Source: Geminicoccaceae bacterium
Lineage (GTDB): Bacteria; Pseudomonadota; Alphaproteobacteria; Geminicoccales; Geminicoccaceae
DNA length: 42,976 nt
NCBI GenBank assembly: GCA_020445645.1
Contig: JAGRGG010000071.1
Span: 1-42,976 of the forward strand
Reading direction: 5' to 3'
The translations under genes and the position numbers were made by a program. This document shows positions 2,168 to 16,480 of the stretch, in pieces (the first letter of the stretch is position 1; every line of letters starts with the position of its first letter). Below the pieces are notes generated by a model. That model saw nothing but the letters and a program-made list of their open reading frames with translations. It was not told the DNA's origin and made no database searches.

Positions 2168-2789
2168 CGGCGTTTCGCCTCCCTGGTATACCAGACCCGC
2201 CGCCTGTCTAGCCGCAAGCCCGCTTCCTGACAATGCGGCGTACCGCGTTCCGATTCGAGCGCAGGAACGCCGTCCGTTGACGCCGCTGTCAAGGCGCTTC
2301 GCGCCTCTCCCCCCGAAGCCCGCTCGCGGAACCGGTCGGCGAAGGGGCCGTTTATGCGGGTCGGGTACGGCTTAGCGGCAAAAAAGCCACATGAGAAAGA
2401 GGGAAATGCAAGTCGACAGGCGGCCCGGCTCGCCCTGTGGCGGCGCCCCGTCCTAGAAGCAGGGACAGCCGCGACGTGGCCCGATCGGCCCGGGCTCTTA
2501 TTGCAACGCAGCAAAATCTGCCCATCTAACGTCTTGCTGCCCAAAGTCGGCCCTGTCCAGCACGTGCTGTCACCGCGAACCGATGCAGTTTTGCAAGGTT
2601 GGCACGGCTTGTTGTGCATTTGGTTGAATTTACCTTCGTAACAATTTGCAACACAACGTGATTGGCGGTTAACGGGTCGCCTACCTATCGTTCAGCCGTC
2701 GGCTTTCCTGCGGGCAGCCCCGCCCGTGGAAGGTCGTGGAGCGGAGGAAGGGACCGGTTGCGCGTCCCCCACAAGGTCGGAGCGTTGAG
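2168..2789. promoter_or_regulatory. Divergent intergenic region between pnt and the sphingolipid operon
   Basis: About 620 bases with no convincing gene; open frames here have no family-like sequence. Both the leftward pnt operon and the rightward acyl-AMP ligase operon must start from it. The part nearest the plus-strand gene, about 2606-2685, is clearly AT-richer than its surroundings, as expected for promoter DNA. The hexamer TTGCAA occurs three times (2501-2506, 2591-2596, 2646-2651). I cannot place a -35/-10 pair with confidence. Confidence 0.4.
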
Positions 2790-4571
2790 ATGGTGAAGCC
2801 CACGACGACGAGCAACGCGAGGCTTGCCTTCAGGTCCGAGGGCTTCGCCACGCTCGCCGAGGGTCTGGACTACGCGGCGGGCGGCGAGACCGGGGTCAAC
2901 TTCTTCGGTCCGCGCGGCGATCTGTTGCGGGCGCTTTCCTACGCCGAATTGCGCGGCCTCGCGCTCGACTTCGCCGCCCGCCTCGCCGCGACCCGGCTGA
3001 AGCGGGGCGACCGGGTCGGGATCGTCGCCGAGACCGGCCCCGACTTCCTCGTCGCCTTCTTCGGCTGCCAGTACGCGGGCTTCGTGCCGGTGCCGCTGCC
3101 CCTCTCGATCAATTTCGGCGGGCGGGAAGCCTACGTCGAGCGGCTGCGCGGGATGCTGCTCGCGGCGGGCGCCCGCGCCGCCATCGCGTCCGCCGACCTG
3201 CTGGGCACGCTTCAAGAAGCGGCGCGGCCGACGGCGACGGCTTTCGTCGCCACGGTAAGGGATCTCATGGACGGGCCTTGCGTCGGGGGCGGCCTCGCCC
3301 CGCTCGGCGCGGGCGATCCCTGCTACATCCAGTACTCGTCGGGCAGCACGAGCTTCCCGCGCGGCGTCCTCGTCACCCAGAGCGCCATCGCCGCCAACGC
3401 GCGCGCCATCGCCGTGGACGGCATCGCCCTTCGCCAGGGCGACCGCTGCACGTCCTGGCTGCCGCTCTATCACGACATGGGCCTCGTCGGCTGCTGCCTG
3501 ACGCCGATCCTCAACCAGATCTCGGTCGACTATCTGGCGACGACGAGCTTCGCAAGGCGCCCCTTCGTCTGGCTGAAGCTGCTTTCGGACATGGGCGGCA
3601 CGATCTCGTTCAGCCCCACCTTCGGCTACGAGCTTTGCGCGCGCCGGGCGGAGAACGGGCAGGTGCCCGCGCTCGACCTCGGCCGCTGGCGGGTCGCCGG
3701 GATCGGCGGCGAGATGATCCGCGCCAACGCGCTGCAACGCTTCGCCGAGACCTTCGCGCCGCTCGGCTTCGACCCCCGCGCCTTCCTGCCGTCCTACGGC
3801 ATGGCCGAGGCGACCCTTGCCGTCACCTTCGCCAAGCGCGGGCGCGGCGTCACGATCGACCGGGTCGCCCGCGGCGAGGCCTTGGAGCGGCGCAAGGTGG
3901 CCGAGCCCGCGCGGACGGCGAGCGCGCCGATCCGCGACTTCGTCGTCTGCGGCCGGCCGATGCCCGGCTACGCGGTCGAGGTCCGCGACGCGCACGACAA
4001 CCCCCTGCCCGAGCGGCACGTCGGCCGGGTCTGCATCCAGGGGCCGTCGCTCATGGACGGCTACTTTCGCAACGCGGACGCGACCCGCGCCGCGATCACC
4101 CCCGACGGCTGGCTCGACAGCGGCGACCTCGGCTACATGATGCACGGCGAGCTGGTCGTCACCGGGCGCAGCAAGGACCTGATCATCCTGGGCGGGCGCA
4201 ACATCTGGCCGCAGGACCTGGAGTGGGCGGTCGAGCGCCTGGACCGGGTGCGGGCCGGCGACGTGGCGGCGTTCGCCGTCACGGGCGAGGAGGACGAGGA
4301 GCGCCTCGTCGTCCTCGTCGAGTGCCGCACCCGCGATCCTTTGGAGCAGGTGACGCTCCGCCGCGCGGTCCAGGCCACCGTCCAGCGCGTCGCCGGCGCC
4401 GAGGCCACCGTCGTTCTCGTGCCGGTGCGCTCGCTCACCTTCACGACCTCGGGCAAGCTCAGCCGCGCCACCGCGAAGGGTCACTACGAATCCGGCCTGC
4501 TCCGCGACGTGGCCGAAGCGTACGAGGCCGGGACGGCCGTCCCGGTCGAGGCGTTCGCCGCCACGGCATGA
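2790..4571 (+). CDS. Fatty-acyl-AMP ligase / acyl-ACP synthetase of sphingolipid locus
   Basis: A 593-residue member of the adenylate-forming superfamily. It likely activates a fatty acid as acyl-AMP and loads it onto the carrier protein encoded two genes downstream. The phosphate-binding loop YSSGSTSFPRG is at residues 182-192. Further on are the SYGMAEATLAVTF adenine-site motif, a WLDSGDLGYM motif, and GRSKDLIILGGRNIWPQD near the hinge. The sequence looks more like fatty-acyl-AMP ligases than acyl-CoA synthetases. The ATG at 2790 was chosen because an upstream in-frame ATG (2736) would only add low-complexity residues. The stop overlaps the next start as ATGA, so translation is probably coupled. 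In Caulobacter an acyl-ACP synthetase sits in the same position beside serine palmitoyltransferase. Confidence 0.88.
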   Translation: MVKPTTTSNARLAFRSEGFATLAEGLDYAAGGETGVNFFGPRGDLLRALSYAELRGLALDFAARLAATRLKRGDRVGIVAETGPDFLVAFFGCQYAGFVPVPLPLSINFGGREAYVERLRGMLLAAGARAAIASADLLGTLQEAARPTATAFVATVRDLMDGPCVGGGLAPLGAGDPCYIQYSSGSTSFPRGVLVTQSAIAANARAIAVDGIALRQGDRCTSWLPLYHDMGLVGCCLTPILNQISVDYLATTSFARRPFVWLKLLSDMGGTISFSPTFGYELCARRAENGQVPALDLGRWRVAGIGGEMIRANALQRFAETFAPLGFDPRAFLPSYGMAEATLAVTFAKRGRGVTIDRVARGEALERRKVAEPARTASAPIRDFVVCGRPMPGYAVEVRDAHDNPLPERHVGRVCIQGPSLMDGYFRNADATRAAITPDGWLDSGDLGYMMHGELVVTGRSKDLIILGGRNIWPQDLEWAVERLDRVRAGDVAAFAVTGEEDEERLVVLVECRTRDPLEQVTLRRAVQATVQRVAGAEATVVLVPVRSLTFTTSGKLSRATAKGHYESGLLRDVAEAYEAGTAVPVEAFAATA

Positions 4572-5503
4572 GCCCCCGTATCGCCGTCACCGGCGGCACC
4601 GGCTTTATCGGCCGCCACGTCCTGCCCCTCTTGAGCGCGGACGGGTGCGGTCTGACGCTGCTGCAACGCCGGGGGCATGGCGGGACGTCGCCGTTCGGGC
4701 GCGTCGTGCCGGGCAATCTCGACGACGAAGGGGCGCTGGGCGCCCTCGTGGCGGGCGCCGACGCCGTCGTCCATCTGGCCGGGATCGTGCGCGGCCCGGA
4801 CCCCGCCGCCTTCGACGCCGTCAACGCCAAGGGCGCCGGCCGCGTCGCGGCGGCGGCGGCCAGGGCAGGGGTTCCCCGCTTCGTCCTGGTCTCCTCGCTC
4901 GCGGCCCGCCACCCCGAAGCCTCGGCCTATGCGAGGAGCAAGGCGGACGGCGAGGCGGCGGTGCGCCGGGCCTACAAGGGCGACCTCTCGATCCTGCGCC
5001 CGCCCGCCGTCTACGGCCCGGGCGACCGGGCGACGCTGCCGGTCTTCCAGGGGATGGCGAAGGGGCTGCTCGTCGTCCCGGCGCCGAAGGGGCAGCGGGT
5101 CTCGCTGATCCACGTCGAGGACCTCGCCCGGCTCGTCGTCCGCCTTGCCGAAACGGCGGGGACGGGCGATACCCCGATCGAACCCGACGACGGCAAGAAC
5201 GGGGGCGGGGGCGGCTATCGCTGGGCCGACCTCGCGGCCGGGGCCGAGGCGGTGCTGGGGCGGCGGGTGCGCCTCGTCTTCCTGCCGAGAAGCGCCGCGG
5301 CGGCGCTCGCCTTCGCCTTCGACCTCGCCGCCCGCGTCACCGGCCGGGCGATGCCGTTCGGGCGGGACAAGCTCGGCGAACTCTATTACCCAGACTGGGT
5401 GGCGAGGGCGGCCCCCGTCCCGGGCTGGCAGCCGCGAACGCCGCTCACGGAAGGTCTGCGGACGACCTTCGAGGGGTATCGGCAGGAAGGATGGATCGGA
5501 TGA
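4568..5503 (+). CDS. cerR: NAD(P)-dependent epimerase/reductase, ceramide reductase-like (CerR)
   Basis: A 311-residue extended short-chain dehydrogenase of the NDUFA9-like group. The nucleotide-binding motif TGGTGFIG is at residues 8-15. The VVHLAGIV strand, VSSLAA and the YARSK catalytic Tyr/Lys motif follow. The C-terminal half carries a hydrophobic stretch, SAAAALAFAFDLAARVTG. Proteins of this type beside bacterial serine palmitoyltransferase act in Caulobacter as reductase of the 3-keto sphingoid intermediate. Assignment to that step here is by family and neighbourhood. It overlaps the ligase and carrier-protein genes by four bases each (ATGA), so the block is one coupled operon. Confidence 0.82.
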   Translation: MSPRIAVTGGTGFIGRHVLPLLSADGCGLTLLQRRGHGGTSPFGRVVPGNLDDEGALGALVAGADAVVHLAGIVRGPDPAAFDAVNAKGAGRVAAAAARAGVPRFVLVSSLAARHPEASAYARSKADGEAAVRRAYKGDLSILRPPAVYGPGDRATLPVFQGMAKGLLVVPAPKGQRVSLIHVEDLARLVVRLAETAGTGDTPIEPDDGKNGGGGGYRWADLAAGAEAVLGRRVRLVFLPRSAAAALAFAFDLAARVTGRAMPFGRDKLGELYYPDWVARAAPVPGWQPRTPLTEGLRTTFEGYRQEGWIG

Positions 5504-5763
5504 CCCCGACGACGAACGAAGACGCGATCTTCGAGGCGGTGACGGGCCTCCTGGGGCGCCACCGGCCGGCGGGCGCTGTCGTCACGCCCGCGACCGAACT
5601 CGGCGCCGACCTCAACATCGACAGCGTCGCCGCGATGGACCTCATCATGGAGATCGAGGACCATTTCGAGATCGACATCCCCGTGAACCAAGTGGGCGAC
5701 ATGCGGACCGTGGGCGACCTCGCCGGGCTGGTCCGCAAGGAAGTCGCGGCCAAGCAGGGCTAG
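5500..5763 (+). CDS. Acyl carrier protein dedicated to sphingolipid synthesis
   Basis: An 87-residue acidic carrier protein with the phosphopantetheine site ADLNIDSVAAMDL; the modified serine is residue 42. DSV replaces the more common DSL. The helix MEIEDHFEIDIP is typical of the family. Two ATGs are available, 5491 and 5500. The AGGAAGG ribosome site directly abuts the first, so the second, overlapping the upstream stop as ATGA, is preferred. It probably delivers the acyl chain to serine palmitoyltransferase, whose gene follows 19 bases later. Confidence 0.9.
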   Translation: MTPTTNEDAIFEAVTGLLGRHRPAGAVVTPATELGADLNIDSVAAMDLIMEIEDHFEIDIPVNQVGDMRTVGDLAGLVRKEVAAKQG

Positions 5764-5782: not shown

Positions 5783-6988
5783 TTGGACATCTTCGACAAG
5801 TTCAAGCCGACGATGGCGCGGCGGTCCGCCGTGCTCGCCGCCGGGCGCAACCCGTTCGGGCTCACCGTCGAGCGCGTGCTCTCGCCGACGGTCGGGATCA
5901 TCGAGGGGCGGGAGACGATCCTCGTCGGCACCAACAACTATCTCGGCCTCAGCTTCGACCCCGCCTGCATCGATGCCGCCCTTCAAGCGACGAAGGAGGA
6001 CGGCACGGGCACGACGGGCTCCCGGATCGCCAACGGCTCGTTCGGCCGCCACGTCCGGCTGGAGGAGGCATTCAGGCGGTTCTTCGGCAAGGGCCACGCG
6101 ATCGTCTTCTCGACCGGGTATCAGGCGAACCTCGCCACCATCGCAGGCCTCGCGGGCGAGGGCGACACGATCCTCGCCGACAGCGACAGCCACGCCTCGA
6201 TCTGGGACGGCTGCAGGCTCGCCGCCGCCGAAACCGTCGTTTTCCGCCACAACGACCCGGACCACCTCGACCGCCGCCTCGCCCGCCTGAAGGACAAGGG
6301 CGGCGCCAAACTGATCGTCGTCGAAGGGCTCTACTCGATCCTCGGCGACACGGCACCTCTGAAGGAGTTCGTCGCGGTGAAGCGGCGCCATCCAGGATCC
6401 TACCTCCTCGTCGACGAGGCGCACTCGTTCGGCGTCTTCGGCGAGAAGGGACGCGGCGTCGCGGAGGCGGAAGGCGTCGAGGACGGGGTCGACTTCGTCG
6501 TCGGCACGTTCTCCAAGAGCCTCGCCGGCATCGGCGGCTTCGCCGTCTCCGACCACGCCGGCCTCGAGCTGCTGCGCGTCGCCAGCCGCCCCTACATGTT
6601 CACGGCCTCGCCCAACCCCGCCGCGATGGCGTCGGTCACGGAAGCCCTGCACCAGATCGAGCGGCGCCCGGAACTGCGCGCCCGGATCTGGGCCAACGCG
6701 AAGCGGCTCCACGACGGCCTGGAACAGCTCGGCTTCACCCTCGCCGCCCCCTTGAGCCCCGTCATCGCCATCCGCCTCCCCGACGAGGCGACGGCGGTGC
6801 GGGCCTGGAACCTCCTCATCGACGCCGGGGTCTACGTCAACCTCGCCCTGCCGCCGGGCACGCCCAACGGCGCCTGCCTCCTGCGCTGCAGCCTCTCGGC
6901 GGCGCACGAGCCGGACCAGATCGACGAGGTCCTGCGCCGGTTCGAAACCATGCGGGACCGGCTGGAGATGCAGGCGGCGGCGGAGTAG
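5783..6988 (+). CDS. spt: Serine palmitoyltransferase
   Basis: A 401-residue alpha-oxoamine synthase of the PLP aminotransferase fold I class. It condenses L-serine with an acyl thioester to 3-keto-sphinganine, the first step of sphingolipid synthesis. Motifs: NNYLGLS at 51-57, SDSHAS with His137, DEAHSFG at 211-217, and the PLP lysine K245 in GTFSKSLAGIGG. The start is TTG at 5783, eight bases after a GAGGAG ribosome site; no in-frame ATG fits the family N-terminus. BioF and KBL enzymes share the fold, but the cluster of ligase, reductase-like and carrier-protein genes plus a facing ceramide synthase strongly supports SPT. It ends 30 bases before the stop of the facing operon. Confidence 0.9.
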   Translation: MDIFDKFKPTMARRSAVLAAGRNPFGLTVERVLSPTVGIIEGRETILVGTNNYLGLSFDPACIDAALQATKEDGTGTTGSRIANGSFGRHVRLEEAFRRFFGKGHAIVFSTGYQANLATIAGLAGEGDTILADSDSHASIWDGCRLAAAETVVFRHNDPDHLDRRLARLKDKGGAKLIVVEGLYSILGDTAPLKEFVAVKRRHPGSYLLVDEAHSFGVFGEKGRGVAEAEGVEDGVDFVVGTFSKSLAGIGGFAVSDHAGLELLRVASRPYMFTASPNPAAMASVTEALHQIERRPELRARIWANAKRLHDGLEQLGFTLAAPLSPVIAIRLPDEATAVRAWNLLIDAGVYVNLALPPGTPNGACLLRCSLSAAHEPDQIDEVLRRFETMRDRLEMQAAAE

Positions 6989-7018: not shown

Positions 7019-7924
7019 TTACCGTACCGCCCGCTTCAGCAGCAGCCGAACCAGCAACGGCCAAGCCGCGAGTACGGGGTGGCGCCTCCGCCAGGGGGTC
7101 ACTTCGAGTTTCACGCCCGAATGGCGCTCGATCTTGTAGGCGAGGTAGTCGGCGCCGTCGGTGAAAGTGTAGGCGGCCTTCAAGAGGCGCAGCACGGAGA
7201 GGAGCTTGCCCTGGGCGCGGCGCAGGCGCCAGCGCCAGAGGGCGTGGCGGCGGGTTTCGTGGGGCTCCAGGTAGCGGCCCCACTCGAACAGGGTCTCGAA
7301 GCGGGCTTGGTAGTGCGCGAAGATCTGGCGGGGGCGGTCGGGCTTCTCGACGCGCAATTCGGTGCGGTAGGTTTCGGTGAAGGCGCGCAGCCAGAAGGCT
7401 TCGGCGGTCTTCGGGCGCTCCTTGTAGAGGGGGAGGACCATGCGGAACAGGGTCTCGACGCTGCGGGCGAGCGCCCATTCGATTCGCTGGCGGACGGTCT
7501 CGTCGCGGGTCGCGACGAGGCCCATGGGCTGGGCGAAGCGGGCCCAAAAGTAGGGGTTGAGAACCCAGGGGCGGACGCGGTTGCCGAGCTGGCGCAGGCT
7601 GAGAAGCGCGAACTTGGCGCGCAGGCGCCGGCCTTCGTGGTCGGTTTCGACGTAGTAGACGTTCGGCGGGAGCACGGTGTTGAGGAACGCCATGATGCCC
7701 CTTCCGTGGACGGCCTCGTAGCTCTCGGCGATCAGATAGAGGTCGACGAGGCGGTCCTCGAAGACGCCGTCGCGCAGGCAGCTGCCGTAGTAGAGCACAC
7801 CCGCGATGACGGACGGGCCGCCCATCCTCGCCACCGCCGCCTCGGCCAACGCCAGGACCTCGGGCGCCGGCGGCAGCGCCAGTTCCGCGCGCACGACCTC
7901 AAGGGGGGTGCGGATCTCGGCCAA
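7019..7924 (-). CDS. TAM41-like nucleotidyltransferase of sphingolipid locus
   Basis: A 301-residue protein without signal peptide. The nucleotidyltransferase motif YYGSCLRD (Gly47-Ser48) is followed by VDLYLIAESYEAVHG (Asp61). Then comes PPNVYYVETDHEGRRL, then KFALLSL. This order resembles mitochondrial TAM41 (CDP-diacylglycerol synthase): a GS loop, an aspartate before a hydrophobic strand, and a VYY segment before a phosphate-site strand. The C-terminal third is basic and may touch membrane. By context it may form or transfer a nucleotide-activated lipid from ceramide phosphate. That is inference; the substrate is not visible. The start is TTG at 7924, with AGGAG upstream and 14 bases after the lipid-kinase stop. 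Last gene of its operon. Confidence 0.65.
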   Translation of the reverse strand: MAEIRTPLEVVRAELALPPAPEVLALAEAAVARMGGPSVIAGVLYYGSCLRDGVFEDRLVDLYLIAESYEAVHGRGIMAFLNTVLPPNVYYVETDHEGRRLRAKFALLSLRQLGNRVRPWVLNPYFWARFAQPMGLVATRDETVRQRIEWALARSVETLFRMVLPLYKERPKTAEAFWLRAFTETYRTELRVEKPDRPRQIFAHYQARFETLFEWGRYLEPHETRRHALWRWRLRRAQGKLLSVLRLLKAAYTFTDGADYLAYKIERHSGVKLEVTPWRRRHPVLAAWPLLVRLLLKRAVR

Positions 7925-7938
7925 GGGGTCGGTGTCTC

Positions 7939-8895
7939 CTAAAGGCGGACGAAGCGGACCCGCTCGGCGGCCGTCACCCGCGCGGGTTCGCCGGGCGCCG
8001 GCCGGAACAGCTCGCCGTCGAGGGCGATAGGGCCGTCCAGGCGAAGCTCCAGCCTTGCCGCGCGCAGGCTGCGGTAGCCCTCCGGCAGGCGTCGGCGGTC
8101 CCCCCCATAGAGGACGCGCGGCGTACGGCGCAAGAGTCCCCGGGCACCCGTGTCGATCTCGGTCCAGCGGAACCCCTCGCCCCCGCCCCAGAACGGACGG
8201 AAGCCGAGCATCAGGCGCTCCAGGGTAGTGGCGAGCGCCAGGAGCAGACGCCGCCGCGCGGGCTTGCCGCCGTCGATGGCGACGGTAAGCTCGTGCGGGC
8301 CGATCCGGGCGGCGGCGGGGCCGCCGAACGCCGCCCGCCCGAGGAGGCCGGCCACGGTGAGCGCGTGGCCGAGGGCGCCCTCCAGCCCCCGCGCGGCGGC
8401 GCCGCCCCGAAAACGTTTCATGCCGTCGACGATTCCGCCGAGCCCGAGGAACAGGCCGCGCTCGGGGCGGCGGCCCCCGCCGAGGTCGAGGCGGAGCACG
8501 CGGCGCTCCACGGTGAGGGGGGCAAGGGCGTCGGCCTCGGCGGCGGCGAAGAGGCGGGCAAGGTCGGACGCCCGGCCGCTGGCGATGCCGCAGTCGCGGG
8601 CCGTCATGTTGGCGCCGCCCCGCGCCATGTGGCAGAGGAGCGGGGGCCTGGGAAAGAGGTCGCCCCGCTCCAGGACCGCCGTCAGGACGTCCTGGAAGGT
8701 GCCGTCGCCACTGTTGACGACGACGAGTCCAGCGCCCGCTTCGGCGATCCGCCCCACCGTTCCCCCGGCCCGCTCGCCCGGTTCGAGCCGGAGGTGGCGG
8801 ACGCCCGGCCTTGCCGCCGCGACGGCCTCGATATCGGCCATGCCCCGCCTGCGGTTGCGGGTGCTCGTGGGGTTGCTGACGAGGACCGTCCGCAT
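7939..8895 (-). CDS. Diacylglycerol-kinase-type lipid kinase, probable ceramide kinase (CpgB-like)
   Basis: A 318-residue protein with the DAGK catalytic fold. The nucleotide loop NSGDGTFQDV has GDGT at residues 63-66, and RGGANMTARDCG corresponds to the family's substrate-site glycine-rich segment. The C-terminal ALDGELF resembles the closing DGE motif of lipid kinases. The Caulobacter sphingolipid locus has such a kinase, CpgB, which phosphorylates ceramide. The same role is likely here because every neighbour is sphingolipid-related. The ATG at 8893-8895 overlaps the upstream stop as ATGA. The open frame continues upstream only as a shadow of the permease gene. Confidence 0.78.
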   Translation of the reverse strand: MRTVLVSNPTSTRNRRRGMADIEAVAAARPGVRHLRLEPGERAGGTVGRIAEAGAGLVVVNSGDGTFQDVLTAVLERGDLFPRPPLLCHMARGGANMTARDCGIASGRASDLARLFAAAEADALAPLTVERRVLRLDLGGGRRPERGLFLGLGGIVDGMKRFRGGAAARGLEGALGHALTVAGLLGRAAFGGPAAARIGPHELTVAIDGGKPARRRLLLALATTLERLMLGFRPFWGGGEGFRWTEIDTGARGLLRRTPRVLYGGDRRRLPEGYRSLRAARLELRLDGPIALDGELFRPAPGEPARVTAAERVRFVRL

Positions 8896-9971
8896 CAGGC
8901 GGGGAGCCGGCGCGCCCGGCGCGACAGGAGGACGACGGCGGCGAGCAGGACGAGGGCCGGCAGGCCGGTGCCGACGATGGGGGCGACGAAGCCCGCTTCG
9001 GCCAGCGCCACGGCGATGCCGCTCGCGATGATGTAGAAGAACCCGGCGCCGAGGCCCTTCATGAAGAGGGGGCCGATCATCCCCCGGCGGCGGAAGCGGG
9101 TGGCAAGTGCGGCGGCCAGGAGGACGAGGAGGGTGGGGACGAAGGCGCCGAACAGGCGGTGCCAGAAGGCGGTGCGCTGGCTCTGGACGACGGCGACGCC
9201 GTAGCCGTCGTGACGGATGATGTCGGCGAGGTCGAGGAGCCCCAGCTCCTGCGGCGGGCGGGCCAGGACGGCGAGCCGGTCGGCGGCGACCCGGTTCGGC
9301 CACAGGGCCGCCGCTTCCTTTCCGATCGGGCTGCCGTTGCCGACTCCCTGCCGCGTCACCCCTTCGAGATGCCAGGAGCCGCCCTCCAGCCGCGCCCGCG
9401 CCGCCACCACGCGCTCGACGAGGTTGCCGTCCCCGCCCAGGCGAAAGGCGAGGAAGCCGTCGCTCCCGCCGGTCGCGGGGCCGGCGACGGGCAGGCGGAG
9501 CACGGCGTCGCCCTGGCGCAGCCACAGCCGCCCGACGTCGAGGCCGGGGCCGGCGCTCTTGAAGTCGCCGACCCCCCAGGCGCGGAGCGCGTCGATCGTC
9601 CGGGGCACGGCGAGGTCGTCGTTGCCGAGCTTCAGGGCGAGGAGGAGGAGGCAGGCGGGCCAGAGGCGGCGCATGACCCCGCCGGGCGAGACCCCGGCAC
9701 CCCAGATCACCGGCAGTTCGCTGTGGCGGAGAAGGTCGGCCATGAGGAAGAGGGCGGCGAGCACGGCGGCCATCGGCAGAAGTTCGCCCAGCAGGCTCGG
9801 CGTGCGCAGCGCCGCGTAGCGGAGCACCTCCAGCGCCCCGCCGCCGTGGGCCAGCAGCTCGTCGGCGACGTCGAGGAGGTCGAAGAGCATGGCGAACGCC
9901 CAAAGCCCGAGGAGGGCCGCGAGGAAGCGGGCAAGGAGCATCCGGTTGAGGTAGCGGGTGAGCGTGCTCAA
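8895..9971 (-). CDS. LptF/LptG-family permease (LptG-like paralogue)
   Basis: A 358-residue inner-membrane protein of the YjgP/YjgQ family. Hydrophobic helices lie in the first about 110 residues (LLARFLAALLGLWAFAMLF and following). A roughly 150-residue soluble domain follows, suited to a periplasmic jellyroll, then three more C-terminal helices (PTLLVLLAAALA and following). LptF and LptG form the transmembrane part of the lipopolysaccharide extractor. The canonical copies usually sit near lptD, surA and pdxA, not with sphingolipid genes. A role in moving sphingolipid toward the outer membrane is inferred. Start TTG at 9971 overlaps the upstream stop (TTGA). Confidence 0.8.
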   Translation of the reverse strand: MSTLTRYLNRMLLARFLAALLGLWAFAMLFDLLDVADELLAHGGGALEVLRYAALRTPSLLGELLPMAAVLAALFLMADLLRHSELPVIWGAGVSPGGVMRRLWPACLLLLALKLGNDDLAVPRTIDALRAWGVGDFKSAGPGLDVGRLWLRQGDAVLRLPVAGPATGGSDGFLAFRLGGDGNLVERVVAARARLEGGSWHLEGVTRQGVGNGSPIGKEAAALWPNRVAADRLAVLARPPQELGLLDLADIIRHDGYGVAVVQSQRTAFWHRLFGAFVPTLLVLLAAALATRFRRRGMIGPLFMKGLGAGFFYIIASGIAVALAEAGFVAPIVGTGLPALVLLAAVVLLSRRARRLPA

Positions 9972-11173
9972 GCGGTGCCCTCCCCGCCGGTGCGGCGCAG
10001 CACAAGGGCGGTGAGGCGTTCGGTCAGGGCGTCGAGCGCCGTGCGCCCGCCGGGGTTCGGCACGGTCGTCGCGGCGCGCACGAAGAGGATGCAGGCGAGG
10101 GCCGAGAAGGCCGCGAAGGGCAGCCAGAGGCCGAGCCATGCCCCGATGCGGCCGTCGTCGACCAGGGTCTCGCCGCTTTTGAGGATCTGGTTGAATCCCA
10201 CGAGGAGGACGATGCCGATGACGAAGCCGTAGGAGCGCCGGGCGCGGCGGCGCGGCAAGGCGAGCGGCAGGGCCAGGAAGGGGAGGACCGGGACGGCGAG
10301 CGTGCGGACGATCCGGGCGTGCAGCTCGGCCTCGATCTCGGGCGCCTCGATCTCGCCCCGGCTCGTGCCCCGCATCGCCCACAGCTCGGGAAGGGTCAGC
10401 TCGCGCTCGTTCTCGCCGCGCGGGCGGAAGGGCTTCGGCTCCTGGCCGGAGAGGTCGGTCGTGAGTTCGCCGAAGCGCAACGTGAGCGCCGGCACGCCCC
10501 CGCCTTCGCCGCCGCCGCGGGCCAGCTGCTGCACCCCGTCCTCCAGGCGCAGGAGCAGGGCGCCGCCCGCCGGCCCCGGCTCGATCCGGCCGCGCGCGGC
10601 GGTGAGGACGACGGTGCCCCCATCCCCCCGCTCCGAGTAGAGGAACAGCCCCTCGAAGCTGCGCCGGTCGGCCGAAAGCCGCTCGACCCTGTAGGTGGTG
10701 TCGCCGAGCGTGACGAAGCGGCCCGGCTGGATCAGCGACTGGAAGGAGGCGCTCGTCACGGCGTAGACGGCCGCCCGGTAGGCGTAGCGGCTGTAGGGCT
10801 GGAGGTGGCTGACGAGGGCCAAGTGGAGGAGGGCGACGACGAGGGCGAGCCCGAGGACCGGGCGGACCATGCCGGCAAGGCCGACCCCGGACGCCCGCAT
10901 GGCATCGACCTCGCTGTCGGTGCCCAGGCGGTTGAAGGCGAAGAAGATGCCCAGGAACAGGGCGACCGGCAAGGCGAATCCCAGGTAGTAGGGGACGAGG
11001 TAGCTCAGCATCTCGAAGATCATGACGACGCTGCCGCGCCAGCCGAGCACGATGTTGACGACGGAAAGGGCGCGCTCGGCGAGGAGGACCAGGAGGGCGG
11101 CCACGATCGTCGTCGTCGCGGGGCGGAGCACCTGCGCGAGCAGGTAGCGGGTGAGGGTCGAGGACGTCGGCAT
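9968..11173 (-). CDS. LptF/LptG-family permease (LptF-like paralogue)
   Basis: A 401-residue partner of the preceding permease. N-terminal helices (TTTIVAALLVLLAERALS) are followed by YLVPYYLGFALPVALFLGIFFAFNRLGTDSE, split here only in description, and the DAMRASGVG coupling segment characteristic of LptF/LptG where the ATPase contacts the permease. A central soluble domain is followed by C-terminal helices. The start is ATG at 11173. The stop overlaps the next gene, so both halves are made in a coupled way. No LptB-like ATPase or LptA/C bridge protein is encoded nearby, so the pair would have to borrow a shared ATPase or use one encoded elsewhere. Confidence 0.82.
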   Translation of the reverse strand: MPTSSTLTRYLLAQVLRPATTTIVAALLVLLAERALSVVNIVLGWRGSVVMIFEMLSYLVPYYLGFALPVALFLGIFFAFNRLGTDSEVDAMRASGVGLAGMVRPVLGLALVVALLHLALVSHLQPYSRYAYRAAVYAVTSASFQSLIQPGRFVTLGDTTYRVERLSADRRSFEGLFLYSERGDGGTVVLTAARGRIEPGPAGGALLLRLEDGVQQLARGGGEGGGVPALTLRFGELTTDLSGQEPKPFRPRGENERELTLPELWAMRGTSRGEIEAPEIEAELHARIVRTLAVPVLPFLALPLALPRRRARRSYGFVIGIVLLVGFNQILKSGETLVDDGRIGAWLGLWLPFAAFSALACILFVRAATTVPNPGGRTALDALTERLTALVLRRTGGEGTA

Positions 11174-11189: not shown

Positions 11190-12137
11190 TCAGGCCGGGG
11201 CCGGGCGCCACGCGTGCTCGACCAGGGCGTAGCCGTCGTCCTGGCGCGCGATGCGGCCCTGCATGACGGGGTGGACCGAGCCCCTGGTCGGATCGAAGCG
11301 GCGCAGCTCGACGAGGATCGCCTCCCCGCCCGTCGGGTCGATCCGGTAGCGCAGGTAGCCGCCCGAGCTGATGTGGTCGCCCTTCAGGAGCGAGGCGGAA
11401 GGCCCGGCGACGACGGGGACGGGGGCCTTCGGCCCCGGCATCGAGCCGAGGAGGAAGACGTGCTCGTGGCCGGAAAGGACGAGTTCGGCACCGGCGTCCC
11501 GGACGACGTCGCGCAGCGCCTTCTCGTCGCGCAGGTGCCGCCGGCTGCCGATGAGCCTGTCGAGGGGCGGGTGGTGGACGAGGATGACGCGAAAGAGCCC
11601 TTCCTGGCCGAGCCCGGCCAGGAGGTCCTTGAGCGGCGCCACCTGGGCGGACCCCAGCCGCCCGGTCGCGTAGCCGAGCGGGCTCGGCACGGCCGAGGAC
11701 AGGCCGATCAGCGCCAGAGGCCCGACCCGGCGCACGAAGGGGAAGACGGGGGCGGCGGGCGGCTCGCCGTCGCCGCGCATGTAGGCGCGCCAGTTCACCC
11801 AGCCCGCCCGCCAGGAACGGCCGGAGTAGGCGTCGTGGTTGCCGGGGATCACGGTCACGTCCTCGGGCTCGCCCAGGCGCCGGAGCCACTGCCCGGCCTG
11901 CACGAACTCGTCCGGGAGCGCGATGTTGACGAGATCCCCCGTGACCGCCGTGTGGCCGGGCGGGTCGGCGTGGATGTCCTTGATGAGCGCGTCCAGGACC
12001 TCGACGCGGTGGATGAGGTAGCGCTTCCTGTGCCAGGAGATGTAGCCGATGCTCCGCTTCGAGAGCAGGTGCTTCGTCCGGGCATGGGGCAAGGGTCCCA
12101 GGTGCACGTCGGTGACGTGCGCAAGCTCGAAGGTCAC
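11190..12137 (-). CDS. Calcineurin-like metallophosphoesterase
   Basis: A 315-residue cytoplasmic phosphoesterase with the complete metal-site series in order: TDVHLG (Asp10, His12), GDLVNI, PGNHDAY, LVHHPPL and SGHEHVFL. No signal peptide or membrane segment is seen. The start is GTG at 12137, overlapping the upstream nucleotidyltransferase stop as GTGA. It lies inside the sphingolipid operon, between the nucleotidyltransferase and permease genes. It may hydrolyse a phosphorylated or nucleotide-linked intermediate of headgroup synthesis, or act like LpxH-type pyrophosphatases on a lipid. Neither can be decided from sequence. Confidence 0.85.
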   Translation of the reverse strand: MTFELAHVTDVHLGPLPHARTKHLLSKRSIGYISWHRKRYLIHRVEVLDALIKDIHADPPGHTAVTGDLVNIALPDEFVQAGQWLRRLGEPEDVTVIPGNHDAYSGRSWRAGWVNWRAYMRGDGEPPAAPVFPFVRRVGPLALIGLSSAVPSPLGYATGRLGSAQVAPLKDLLAGLGQEGLFRVILVHHPPLDRLIGSRRHLRDEKALRDVVRDAGAELVLSGHEHVFLLGSMPGPKAPVPVVAGPSASLLKGDHISSGGYLRYRIDPTGGEAILVELRRFDPTRGSVHPVMQGRIARQDDGYALVEHAWRPAPA

Positions 12138-12928
12138 GCTCTTTCCCCCCTCTTCGCCAGGATCGCCTCGGCAAGAACCAGATCCCCGGGCTTGTCGACG
12201 TCGACCGCCGCCGCCGCCGCGTCCAGCCGCACGACGGCGGCGGCGCACCCCATGATCGGCCCGATCCTTGCCAGCGCGGCGTCGAGGTCGAGGCGGCGGA
12301 GGAGGTAGGCCAGGAACAGGCGGGGGCCGAAGGCGGTGGCGATCCGCCAGGGCCGCTTGCGCTCCTGCTCCACCCGCCGCCAGAAGGCAACCGCCCCCCT
12401 CGCGTCGTCGTTCGCAAGGAGGAACAGGTTCGCCCCCGAAACGTCGCCGTCCCTGAAGGACAGATAGGTGCGCCGCGTCGCCGGCAGTTCGGCCTCGATC
12501 GTCTCGCGGCGGACGACGCCCGCGACGACGTCGGCGTCCCGCGCCCAAGCGGCGGCGAGGAAGGCGCCAAGGATGTCGGCCGTCAGCAGCGGGTGATCGC
12601 CCGTCGTGACGAGGAGCGGCGCGCCGAGCCGGTCGAGCGCCGCCATGACGGAAAGGCTCGGGCTCGCCGCCGCCGGCAGGACGAGGGGTGCCGCACCCGT
12701 GGCTTCGAGCAGGTGCCCGACCTCGGCGGGAGCGCCCGCCTCCAGCGAGACGGCGATCGGGCCGAGCCCCGGCATCGCCGCCAGCGTCGCCACGACCCTC
12801 GCCAGCATTGGCCGGCCGGCGACGGATGCGAGGCACTTGTGGGCGACGCCGGCGTGGCGGGCGAGCGGGTCATCGGGTCCCCGCGAGCCGGCGAGGACGA
12901 GGACGGGCAGGGAGGCGGGCGGGGTCAA
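12134..12928 (-). CDS. MobA-like NTP transferase, possible headgroup cytidylyltransferase (CpgD-like)
   Basis: A 264-residue GT-A-fold nucleotidyltransferase. The N-terminus VLVLAGSRGPDDPL and HKCLASVAGRPML are the family's nucleotide-binding loop and lysine segment. TTGDHPLLTA carries the metal-binding aspartate, and VDVDKPGDLVLAEAIL is the closing motif common to sugar and alcohol nucleotidyltransferases. A cytidylyltransferase acting on phosphoglycerate has been described for Caulobacter ceramide diphosphoglycerate synthesis (CpgD). Equivalence is plausible from locus content but not proven here. Start TTG at 12928 overlaps the ceramide synthase stop (TTGA). Confidence 0.72.
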   Translation of the reverse strand: MTPPASLPVLVLAGSRGPDDPLARHAGVAHKCLASVAGRPMLARVVATLAAMPGLGPIAVSLEAGAPAEVGHLLEATGAAPLVLPAAASPSLSVMAALDRLGAPLLVTTGDHPLLTADILGAFLAAAWARDADVVAGVVRRETIEAELPATRRTYLSFRDGDVSGANLFLLANDDARGAVAFWRRVEQERKRPWRIATAFGPRLFLAYLLRRLDLDAALARIGPIMGCAAAVVRLDAAAAAVDVDKPGDLVLAEAILAKRGERA

Positions 12929-14085
12929 AGGAGGGGCTTCGCGTAGATGCGGTAGGTCTTGTAGGGGCGCCCGCCCACCGTCTCGATCAGCCCCTGGATG
13001 CGGGGGTTGTCCTCCAGGATCCAGGACAGCTCGCCCCGCTCGATCCCGCGCCGGACGGCAGATACCCGCACCTTCTCGATGACGCCGAGGGCAAGGGCGG
13101 CGCCGGCGCGGGTGTTCTGCAAATGCCGTCTTACCCCCATGAGCGGCATCCGCATCGACTTGACGCCCGCGACCTTCAGCCGCCAGAGGAACTTCGCCCA
13201 GCCGAAGGGGAGGAGGCGCCCGTCCAGGCCCCGGATCGCCTCGTTCAGGTTGGGCAGGACCACCGTCATCGCCACGGGCTCGCCGTTCAGCTCGCCGATG
13301 GCGAACATGTCGGACGCCACGATGGGGCGGATCGAGGCGGCGAGGTACTGCGCCTCCGCCTCGCCGAACGGGATGAAGCCCCAGTTCTCCGCCCAGGCGT
13401 CGTTGAAAATGTCGCAGATCAGGTGGATCTCGGCCTTGTAGCGCTTCATGTCGAGGTGGCGAAAAGCGATCCCCGGCATCGCCTTCAGGCGTTCGTAGAG
13501 GGCGAGGCCGGGGGCGGGCCAGGGGACGGTCGCGTCGAAGGCGTAGGCGATGAGGTCCTTCTCCTTCGCGTAGCCCAGGTCTTGAAGGAGGCGGTCGTAG
13601 CAGGGGCGCCCGTGCGGCATCATCACGTAGGGAGGGGTGGAAAAGCCCTCGACCAAGAGCCCGGCCTCGTCGTTGATCGACGGGCTCAAGGGGCCGACGG
13701 CGCGGCGCATCCCCTTGGCGCGCAGCCAGACCTCGGCCGTCTCGGTGAGGAGGCGGGCGGCGTCCGGGTCGTCCAGGCACTCGAAGAAGCCGAAATGGCC
13801 GGTGGCGTCGGCGTAGCGCGCCAAATGCGCCTGGTTCACCTGGGCGCCGATCCGGCCGACGGGGCGGGGGCCGCGAAAGGCAGTCCAGTAGGCGGCCTCG
13901 ATGCTACGCATGAAGGGGTTCTTCTTCGCGTTCAGGTGGTCGAGCCGCTCGAAGGTGAGGGGCTGAACCCAGAGGGGATCGTCCCTGTAGACCTCGCGCG
14001 TGACGCCGATGAACCCCTTGAGGTCGCGCCGGTCGCGCACGGGCAGGATCGAAAGCGGCCCCCGCCCGTCGATCCCTACCGCCAT
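12925..14085 (-). CDS. bcerS: GNAT-family bacterial ceramide synthase
   Basis: A 386-residue GNAT-superfamily protein, likely the N-acyltransferase that joins a fatty acyl group to the sphingoid base. The N-terminal part begins ILPVRDRRDLKGFIGVTR. The region FNDAWAENWGFIPFGEAE and the C-terminal ELSWILEDN, GGRPYKTYRIYAKPL are hallmarks of the group found next to bacterial serine palmitoyltransferase. The Caulobacter member was shown to be ceramide synthase; function here follows by family and location. The ATG at 14085 has a strong GGGAGGAGG site upstream. It is the first coupled gene of the minus-strand block and begins 31 bases after the glycosyltransferase-fusion stop. Confidence 0.82.
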   Translation of the reverse strand: MAVGIDGRGPLSILPVRDRRDLKGFIGVTREVYRDDPLWVQPLTFERLDHLNAKKNPFMRSIEAAYWTAFRGPRPVGRIGAQVNQAHLARYADATGHFGFFECLDDPDAARLLTETAEVWLRAKGMRRAVGPLSPSINDEAGLLVEGFSTPPYVMMPHGRPCYDRLLQDLGYAKEKDLIAYAFDATVPWPAPGLALYERLKAMPGIAFRHLDMKRYKAEIHLICDIFNDAWAENWGFIPFGEAEAQYLAASIRPIVASDMFAIGELNGEPVAMTVVLPNLNEAIRGLDGRLLPFGWAKFLWRLKVAGVKSMRMPLMGVRRHLQNTRAGAALALGVIEKVRVSAVRRGIERGELSWILEDNPRIQGLIETVGGRPYKTYRIYAKPLL

Positions 14086-14116: not shown

Positions 14117-16480
14117 TCAGGCGGCGGACCGGCGGTCCTCCTGCATCAGCCGTCTTACCCGCTCGACGACGAGGTCGACGTCGTTGAGCGGGCGCTTCGT
14201 CGCGATCACCCGCCCGTCGTCGAGCCGGGTGACGAGGCCGCGCGCGGCCAGCGCCCGGTGCAGCCGCTTCAGGTCGCGCGGCAGCCTGAGCCAGCCCCTC
14301 GTCAGCAGGCGGTCGAGGAGGCGCGATACGGCGTGCTGCTGCAGGGGGGTGCCGCGGTAGCTGGTCCCGCCGCCGACCATGAGGCCGAGCAGGCGGCGGA
14401 TCGGCCGGGCCAGCGGGTAGCGGTCGAGCCGCTCCGGCGGCTCGAACAGGTCGACGGGCTTGCCGGCGGCGCAGGCGGCGGCGAGGAGGTCGACGTCGTC
14501 GCCCATGAGCAGGCAGCGGTCGGCGGCGCGCACCAGGGCTTCCCTCGCCCCCTCCCCGGCGGCGGACGGGTCGTCGCTCAGGACCGGCGCCTCGCGCCCG
14601 ACGCCCTCTTGGAGCGCCGCCCGCACCGCGTCCGGCGTATCCGGCTCGAACCATACCGCGAGCGAGCCGCCCAGGTCGTCGAGGCGCGCGGCGGCGAGTT
14701 GCCCGAAGCGCCGGGCCGCCGCGGCGTCGAGCCTGTAGGGCCGCTTGCCCGGCCCGGCGACGAGGACGGAACGGGGTGCCGCCATCGCTTCGAGCCGCTC
14801 GCGCCAGCGGCCCTCCAGCCGCCCGGCCGCCGCGTCGCGCCCGCCGGCCAGAGGGGCCGTGACGTGGAGGACGTTGTCGCGGATTGGCAGGCGGTGCTGC
14901 GGCTGGACGACGATGAGGTTGAACAGGCCGAACGCGGTCTCGGGCCGCCCCAATTGCACGACGCGGGTGCGCTTCCCTCCTTGGCGCCCGATCCAGGCGG
15001 CGACGCGGGCGGCCCGTCTTCCGGCGGCGATGACCAGGTCGGGCCAGGGAGGATCGAGGGGGTCGGAGCGGCGCCGGTCGAGCCCGCCGGGGGACGCGCC
15101 GCGCACGACGTTCGGCAGCCGCGACCAAGGGCCATGCGCGACGCGCTTCGCCGCAAAGCCCCAGCCCAGCGCCTCGGCGAGGCGCTTCACCTGCGCGTCG
15201 CGGCCGGGGTCGCCGTCCAGGAGCGCCCAGACGGCGGGGGCTTCCGGCCCGTCGTGACATCTGGCGCCGAACGCGCGCTCGGTGCCGGGGATCGGCGCCG
15301 CCCGGTCGGCCACGTCGAGGTGCCAGCTGACGCCGGAATGGAAGCGCGCGGCCTCGGCGAGGCGCTTTTCCCACCAACGCGCGCTGCCCATGCCCTCCGG
15401 CTCGGTCGCCGGCAATGCCGCGTAGAGGAGCTTCTCGGCCCTTTGAAACAGTTCGTTCAGAACCCAGGGCAGGTCGGCGGGCGGCAGGCGCTCCAGCAGG
15501 CCGCGGGCGATCACCATGTCGCGCTTGCCTTCCGGCCACGCGGCCGAAGGGGCGAGGTGGAAGCGATCGAGCGCGATCCCGCCCGGCAGGGCGCCGGGCG
15601 GCGGATCGCCCCCGATCGCCGTGACGAGGAGGGCCGAGCGGACGCCCAGATCCTCGACGAGGCGCCGGGCGTCCCCCGACAGCTTCGGCGCGGCGTCGGG
15701 CACTGCCCCGCCGTTGTTCGCGTCCAGGCGGCGGGCGAAATCGGGGCTCGGACGCTCCCGGTCGAACACTTCAAAGCCCTGCGCGTCGGCCTCGCGCTCC
15801 AGGTCGTGCCAGACGTAGGCGAGCGGGTTCGGGTGGTAGGAGTAGTCGCCGGGGAAGGGCTGCCAAGGCTGCTGGTGCAGGGCCGTGTAGTGCAGGCACT
15901 TGGTCAGCCCCTCGACGTATTCCTGGTCGCGGGCGTTCCAGTGCGGGTCGAGGCGCCCCCACAGGTCGGGGATCGCCGCCGGCTTGTTGATTAGCTCGTG
16001 TTTGCCCTTGGAAGCCGCCGTACCCCGGTTCCAGAGTTCGGCCATCCGGGCGCAGTCGATGAGCATGACCGACGTGTCCTTCGCCGAGATGGCGAGGTAG
16101 CCGTGGTCGCCCATGTCGAGGTCGAACAGGAGTGCCGGATCGGCGAGGTAGATCTGGTCCACGTCGTTGTAGATCGCCCGCCCCTTGAAGCCGGCGAACT
16201 CAGGGATGGCGTAGCGGTAGTTGGTGAAGCCCGTCCGCCAGCGGCTCCGGTCGAAGCCGGCGACGTTCTTCATCAGGTAGATCTCGTAGACGCGGGCGGG
16301 GTCGCGGACCTTCTCGATCGAGTAGAAGAAGATGCGCTCGGCCCTGTACTGCGCCTCCTCGGTGCCGAGGTAGATCCGCACCGGCGGCTTGTCGGACGGC
16401 CGCGTCCCCGGCCGCGCGTCCAGGACGACCCGGTCGGGGTCCTGGCGAGAGAAGGGCCAGCGGTCGAGGGAATCCGGCAT
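14117..16480 (-). CDS. Multidomain fusion: GT-A-like glycosyltransferase + middle domain + ELM1 domain
   Basis: A 787-residue protein in one uninterrupted frame. Residues about 30-250 resemble a GT8-like transferase: an initial VRIYLGTEEAQYRAERIF strand, and the metal-binding DxD in AIYNDVDQIYLADP. Residues about 270-400 look like a reduced methyltransferase domain, with KRDMVIARGLLERLPPADL. From about 420 on it matches the ELM1 (mitochondrial fission) family: PDLVIAAGRRAARVAAWI, VQLGRPETAFGLFNLIVVQ and NVLHVTAPL. The ELM1 group resembles GT-B glycosyltransferases. Same strand as the ceramide synthase and only 31 bases upstream, so it may be co-transcribed. A sphingolipid or lipid A glycosylation role is possible but unproven. 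The ATG at 16480 was taken as start. Confidence 0.75.
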   Translation of the reverse strand: MPDSLDRWPFSRQDPDRVVLDARPGTRPSDKPPVRIYLGTEEAQYRAERIFFYSIEKVRDPARVYEIYLMKNVAGFDRSRWRTGFTNYRYAIPEFAGFKGRAIYNDVDQIYLADPALLFDLDMGDHGYLAISAKDTSVMLIDCARMAELWNRGTAASKGKHELINKPAAIPDLWGRLDPHWNARDQEYVEGLTKCLHYTALHQQPWQPFPGDYSYHPNPLAYVWHDLEREADAQGFEVFDRERPSPDFARRLDANNGGAVPDAAPKLSGDARRLVEDLGVRSALLVTAIGGDPPPGALPGGIALDRFHLAPSAAWPEGKRDMVIARGLLERLPPADLPWVLNELFQRAEKLLYAALPATEPEGMGSARWWEKRLAEAARFHSGVSWHLDVADRAAPIPGTERAFGARCHDGPEAPAVWALLDGDPGRDAQVKRLAEALGWGFAAKRVAHGPWSRLPNVVRGASPGGLDRRRSDPLDPPWPDLVIAAGRRAARVAAWIGRQGGKRTRVVQLGRPETAFGLFNLIVVQPQHRLPIRDNVLHVTAPLAGGRDAAAGRLEGRWRERLEAMAAPRSVLVAGPGKRPYRLDAAAARRFGQLAAARLDDLGGSLAVWFEPDTPDAVRAALQEGVGREAPVLSDDPSAAGEGAREALVRAADRCLLMGDDVDLLAAACAAGKPVDLFEPPERLDRYPLARPIRRLLGLMVGGGTSYRGTPLQQHAVSRLLDRLLTRGWLRLPRDLKRLHRALAARGLVTRLDDGRVIATKRPLNDVDLVVERVRRLMQEDRRSAA

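Follow-up and report, generated by a model that had tools for sequence, protein, structure and literature searches.

The window analysed here is the whole stretch of 42,976 nucleotides of contig JAGRGG010000071.1, from a Geminicoccaceae bacterium, and it carries two adjacent permease genes of the LptF/LptG family on the reverse strand: lptF (positions 9968..11173, 401 aa) and lptG (8895..9971, 358 aa). Both proteins belong to the family according to PF03739 (220 bits for LptF and 178 bits for LptG, cut-off 27.9). With the equivalog models, LptF scores above the cut-off of TIGR04407 (237.7 vs. 230 bits) and LptG below that of TIGR04408 (187.8 vs. 240 bits). LptF presents a periplasmic jellyroll flanked by transmembrane (TM) helices, with the signature FRPRGENERELT at about residues 249-260, and its AlphaFold2 model (pLDDT 90) has only LptF/LptG chains among its best 30 matches in the PDB. 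The TTG start of lptG (9971) overlaps the TGA stop of lptF (9970-9968), and the lptG stop (8897-8895) ends at the first base of the ATG (8895) of the following gene, which encodes a protein with a diacylglycerol kinase (DAGK) fold. On the other side of the pair, the start of a phosphoesterase gene overlaps the stop of a gene with a nucleoside triphosphate (NTP) transferase fold (GTGA, 12137). As the initial annotation had described, lptF and lptG are translationally coupled to ceramide-modifying enzymes and not to lptD; their operon includes a ceramide synthase together with enzymes for the headgroup and adjoins aasR-cerR-acp-spt. The lptD gene is remote, on a separate contig (C164) of the same genome. 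Both genes are classified as the sphingolipid-locus (SL) type from these profile matches and from their clade (see below), together with the structural model for lptF and the start context for lptG.

A family search of the source genome (G000, a draft of 3.78 Mb in 291 contigs) returned exactly one LptFG pair, that of the window. The two genes had been called paralogues, a term to be used with caution, as no second pair is present in the genome. It had also been reasoned that an only pair would have to be the lipopolysaccharide (LPS) machinery. According to this explanation, the pair is the LPS-exporting LptF/LptG of the genome and lies in a sphingolipid region by chance, which agrees with its being the sole pair and with the score of LptF above the LptF equivalog cut-off. 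However, neither LpxB nor KdtA was found in G000 by family searches. An LpxC-family protein is encoded beside ftsZ (L115 10218-11144, G000:C118, minus strand), as lpxC is in Escherichia coli, and has R, Y, Q and T at the positions of E. coli H79, H238, K239 and D242. The zinc ligands H79, H238 and D242 are thus gone and, with LpxB and KdtA also missing, there is no lipid A to carry. The single pair of G000 is therefore still not LPS machinery, since LPS synthesis has disappeared. A chance location of LPS permeases is very improbable in the light of two further results: LptF and LptG both fall outside the canonical LPS clade, and LPS-bearing members of the family have a canonical pair that adjoins lptD.

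The distributions of LpxB and KdtA are identical over 31 genomes of the family, 23 being without both and 8 with both. Serine palmitoyltransferase (SPT) was detected in 22 of the 23 genomes without these enzymes and in two of the eight others (G004 and G006). The catalytic residues are likewise lost in the LpxC-like proteins of G007, G011, G020 and G025, all without LpxB and KdtA, and are kept in the family genomes possessing LpxB and KdtA. A single exception, G017, combines intact LpxC residues with no LpxB or KdtA found, in a genome that is 86% complete. In LPS-less Geminicoccaceae, the usual site next to ftsZ holds an lpxC that is decaying or has been repurposed. The 23 LPS-less genomes show two PF03739 matches in 21 cases, one match in one case (contig edge) and three in another (8% contaminated). 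We rejected a second pair hidden by an assembly gap as the sole cause of this pattern, since G005, a single contig of 99% completeness, and further genomes of good quality also have a single pair. Two pairs were found in G004, which has both LPS genes and SPT: one lies with lptD, the other in the sphingolipid locus. The same is true of G056, from another family. In both genomes each clade is represented by one pair; despite their two pairs, G004 and G056 each have only one LptB and one LptD.

The LptF tree and the LptG tree each divide the SL proteins from the canonical LPS ones. Both window proteins are placed in the SL clade, apart from canonical LPS LptFG, among other LPS-less Geminicoccaceae. 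In the LptF tree, the LPS clade has a support of 98/85 and is recovered in 97% of the bootstrap trees, with the window LptF outside it. The window proteins group with the SL copies of Pelagibius, Roseomonas, Hyphomonadaceae and Parvularcula, and the two copies of LPS-bearing genomes are distributed one per clade. In these trees Caulobacter, with its proteins CC_1156/CC_1155, is represented only by its relatives Hyphomonadaceae and Parvularcula.

The survey was extended to 25 named genomes with a member of the SL clade, 4 of which duplicate genomes of the family set. LPS status was here assigned by LpxB only, and absences in metagenome-assembled genomes (MAGs) are subject to gaps. All 10 genomes with LpxB (Pelagibius, Roseomonas, Belnapia, Siccirubricoccus, Hyphomonadaceae, Parvularcula and others) possess a canonical pair besides the SL pair, and none of the 15 genomes without LpxB (Geminicoccaceae, Aestuariivirga, Anderseniella, Thermopetrobacter and other MAGs) possesses one. 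Extra divergent LptF/LptG-like genes were noticed in Hyphomicrobiales without LpxB, in Aestuariivirga (L264 5855-7072) and in G071 (L265 5150-7662). They were rejected as a canonical pair, because the tree places both outside the LPS clade, on the SL side, that of G071 on a very long branch. Separately, G052 has a very divergent second LptFG-like pair (L251, G052:C2:499772-501927; 82 and 76 bits) on a long branch, with no SPT match.

The SL proteins keep the coupling-helix glutamate that contacts LptB (contacts from PMC5548808) in 34 out of 35 LptF and 34 out of 34 LptG. Several LptF columns are found only in the SL type and are absent from the LPS type: Glu-Arg in TM1 (33-34), His-Tyr at 62-63, and the stretch FRxRG..ERE(L/M)T between the jellyroll and TM4. 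In LptG, K40 and K41 contact the 4'-phosphate and the inner core in the solved LPS-bound complex (PMC6744409). In canonical LptG of Alphaproteobacteria these two positions carry Arg in most cases, whereas in the SL type most residues there are acidic (Asp/Glu) or small and polar. K34 of LptG was discarded as a cargo marker, as canonical alphaproteobacterial LptG also has no Lys in this column.

The other components of the export bridge are retained. The source genome has single copies of LptB and LptA (both on contig C143) and of LptD (C164), and the three proteins are retained across the LPS-less genomes of the family. The initial annotation had proposed a dedicated sphingolipid exporter with an ATPase encoded elsewhere, in a genome expected to contain a second lptFG pair. 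The phylogeny, the conservation of the locus (see below) and the single lptB, located outside the contig of the window, support such an exporter well; the expected second pair is the part that did not stand.

One component is missing. The order rnd-kdsD-lptA-lptB-rpoN, with a kdsD-lptA gap of 0-84 nt, was observed in G000, G005, G012, G001 and G013. In G000 the gap is 0 nt and lptC is missing there (L125, G000:C143, about 8563-10118). The gap reaches 638-694 nt, the site of lptC, in G002 and G018 (LPS), G004 (LPS and SL) and G003 (LPS-less), with a Pfam LptC match at this place in G002, G003 and G018 and none over the threshold in G004. lptC has been cleanly deleted from kdsD-lptA-lptB in core Geminicoccaceae. 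In E. coli, the LptF substitution R212G allows LptA to replace LptC in a six-protein bridge (PMC9972910). In the LptC-less members of the family the corresponding LptF position is Gln, or His in G005, and in G003 it is Arg. This replacement fits an LptC-free bridge, as a suggestive sign at most.

Around the pair, the cluster contains the genes expected for the synthesis of a complex sphingolipid. Four of them are on the plus strand, in the order aasR-cerR-acp-spt: aasR (2787..4571), a fatty acyl-AMP ligase (NF006624, 755 bits, cut-off 600); cerR (4568..5503), a short-chain dehydrogenase/reductase (PF01370, 83.6 bits); acpR (5500..5763), an acyl carrier protein (PF00550, 38.7 bits); and spt (5783..6988), the serine palmitoyltransferase (NF047599, 606 bits, cut-off 500). 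The others are on the minus strand, as are lptF and lptG. The DAGK-fold gene (7939..8895; PF00781, 35 bits) encodes a lipid kinase resembling the ceramide kinase CpgB/CC_1160 of Caulobacter, an assignment made from context, as its position in the cluster is conserved. The metallophosphoesterase (11190..12137; PF00149) is CC_1158-like by position. It is followed by the NTP-transferase-fold nucleotidyltransferase (12134..12907, start codon not fixed; PF12804, NTP_transf_3, 45.9 bits), similar to CC_1152/CC_1153, and by the ceramide synthase gene cerS (12925..14085), which matched no Pfam or NCBIfam family in profile searches and was assigned by cluster context. The gene at 7019..7924 also had no Pfam or NCBIfam match. 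The AlphaFold2 model of its product (pLDDT 93) matches Tam41-CTP (7ecd; E 3.2e-7, TM-score about 0.5), a cytidylyltransferase fold. Because the model resembles the Tam41 CDP-diacylglycerol (CDP-DAG) synthase and CC_1161/CpgC of Caulobacter is annotated as CDP-DAG-synthase-like (PMC11324152), this gene is a probable CpgC/CC_1161 equivalent, whose product perhaps activates ceramide-1-phosphate. Finally, the gene at 14117..16480 encodes a two-part protein whose C-terminal domain is ELM1/glycosyltransferase-like (PF06258, 127.8 bits, residues 425-687). It adjoins cerS, mainly in Geminicoccaceae loci, and its product could possibly glycosylate the sphingolipid.

This association was examined in 79 homologous loci, collected from named genomes by LptF alignment alone. 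All 79 carry neighbours from the sphingolipid cluster, including the phosphoesterase in 68, cerS in 61 and the Tam41-like gene in 55. In the core-family loci that were read, the order cerS-ntp-phosphoesterase-lptF-lptG-kinase-Tam41-like holds the lptFG pair, and a rearranged version of the cluster occurs in G003 and G004. The presence of cluster neighbours at every locus and the conserved order within the family make the linkage far beyond chance, and the cargo of the window LptFG is probably a phospho-sphingolipid made by the surrounding genes.

The pair might instead export another envelope lipid or glycolipid, such as the product of the ELM1-like enzyme or a general phospholipid, its proximity to sphingolipid genes reflecting co-regulation. 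The glycosyltransferase-like gene (14117-16480) within the family cluster speaks for this explanation. However, the linkage of lptFG to cerS, the nucleotidyltransferase, the phosphoesterase, the lipid kinase and the Tam41-like gene spans several orders, whereas the ELM1-like gene is present in only some of these orders. Besides, ceramide remains a sphingolipid when it is glycosylated. In addition, mutants of Caulobacter CC_1156 (LptF2) show a cofitness of 0.60 with the phosphosphingolipid gene CC_1159 (PMC11324152). We therefore regard another lipid as an unlikely cargo.

Very likely, the window LptFG and the LptB encoded elsewhere form an LptB2FG-type extractor for a complex sphingolipid, a cargo that we infer, as we do the direction and the steps of transport. 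The cluster enzymes would make ceramide and add the headgroup, as suggested by their homologues, and the sphingolipid would then arrive in the periplasmic leaflet of the inner membrane. LptB2FG would extract the lipid from this leaflet, LptB driving the process via the conserved coupling helices. The LptF jellyroll would hand the lipid straight to LptA, without LptC, and LptA would pass it to LptD, which would place it in the outer leaflet. After the loss of LPS, the sphingolipid would be the sole use of the Lpt bridge. Permeases working in reverse or as a regulator, for example in lipid recycling from the outer membrane, are conceivable in so far as sequence does not show direction. Nevertheless, lptA, lptB and lptD are retained, the coupling helices are intact and the known Lpt bridges run outward, which makes a reverse or regulatory role hardly credible.

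Several observations weigh against a sphingolipid extractor in LPS-less cells. No CpgA-like CDP-alcohol transferase was seen in the cluster. KdsD, the arabinose-5-phosphate isomerase of the Kdo pathway, is retained in G000 (L125 9123-10118) despite the absence of KdtA. The draft is fragmented (95.8% complete), although complete or near-complete relatives agree with it. The change at LptG 40/41 is only a hint of a different cargo, because E. coli tolerates substitutions at these positions, K40E/K41E among them (PMC5548808). The residue at position 212 of LptF was rejected as strict evidence of a missing LptC, several canonical LptFs accompanied by LptC also being without Arg. Moreover, LPS status changes only about 3 times on the tree, giving 2-3 independent contrasts, which are too few for significance in a phylogenetic sign test. 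With so few changes, shared ancestry accounts for part of the clean split, and the perfect 2x2 table is a consistent repetition, not a formal proof.

The suspicion that such a transporter had already been reported was well founded. Olea-Ozuna et al. (2024) named LptC2, LptF2 and LptG2 in Caulobacter crescentus and suggested, as an untested proposal, that they move phosphosphingolipids in a manner analogous to LPS; they listed orthologues in other genera and stated that the route of bacterial sphingolipids to the outer membrane is unknown (PMC11324152). The Caulobacter pair (LptF2/LptG2, CC_1156/CC_1155) resembles that of the window, since both are LptFG homologues in a ceramide cluster (CPG2 in Caulobacter) with CerS, ceramide kinase, phosphoesterase and nucleotidyltransferases, and the function proposed there, moving phosphosphingolipids to the outer membrane, is the one inferred here. 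However, LptF2/LptG2 come in addition to an LPS pair and are accompanied by a second LptC (LptC2), whereas the window pair is the sole one in a genome that has lost its LPS genes and has no detectable LptC. With the canonical LptB2FGC-LptA-LptDE exporter, the window system has in common the fold, PF03739, the coupling-helix glutamates and the partners LptA, LptB and LptD. It differs by its separate clade, the absence of lipid A, the deletion of lptC, the replacement of most of the basic residues at LptG 40/41 and the LptF stretch FRxRG..ERE. An LptC-free bridge in which LptF 212 is no longer Arg is shared with the E. coli R212G bypass (PMC9972910), but the latter is a laboratory suppressor that moves LPS and needs extra LptA, whereas lptC was lost naturally here, in a family without LPS. 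LPS-less sphingomonads, e.g. Sphingomonas koreensis, are known (cited in PMC11324152); they are also sphingolipid-making Alphaproteobacteria, but of another lineage. Our search of the open-access literature brought up no paper on the loss of LPS in Geminicoccaceae or in the Hyphomicrobiales concerned, on the single-pair pattern or on the loss of lptC, and no localisation or transport assay of such a pair. The LPS-less, single-pair and LptC-less variant is therefore new as far as this search reached.

Taken as a whole, it is likely that several alphaproteobacterial lineages lost LPS and that the sphingolipid wholly took over their Lpt bridge, the LPS-type LptFG being dropped and the SL pair kept. 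Core Geminicoccaceae would also have dropped LptC, resulting in a minimal LptB2FG-LptA-LptD system that builds a sphingolipid outer leaflet. These bacteria would represent a natural experiment, with LPS lost and an Lpt bridge left that has SL permeases only, so that sphingolipid export could be tested without an LPS background, and core Geminicoccaceae would offer a natural LptC-free Lpt machine. The sequence differences between the SL and LPS types may set the choice of cargo, ceramide lipid or LPS, and the LptF stretch FRxRG..ERE may serve as a sequence marker to predict which bacteria export sphingolipids and which lineages lack LPS.

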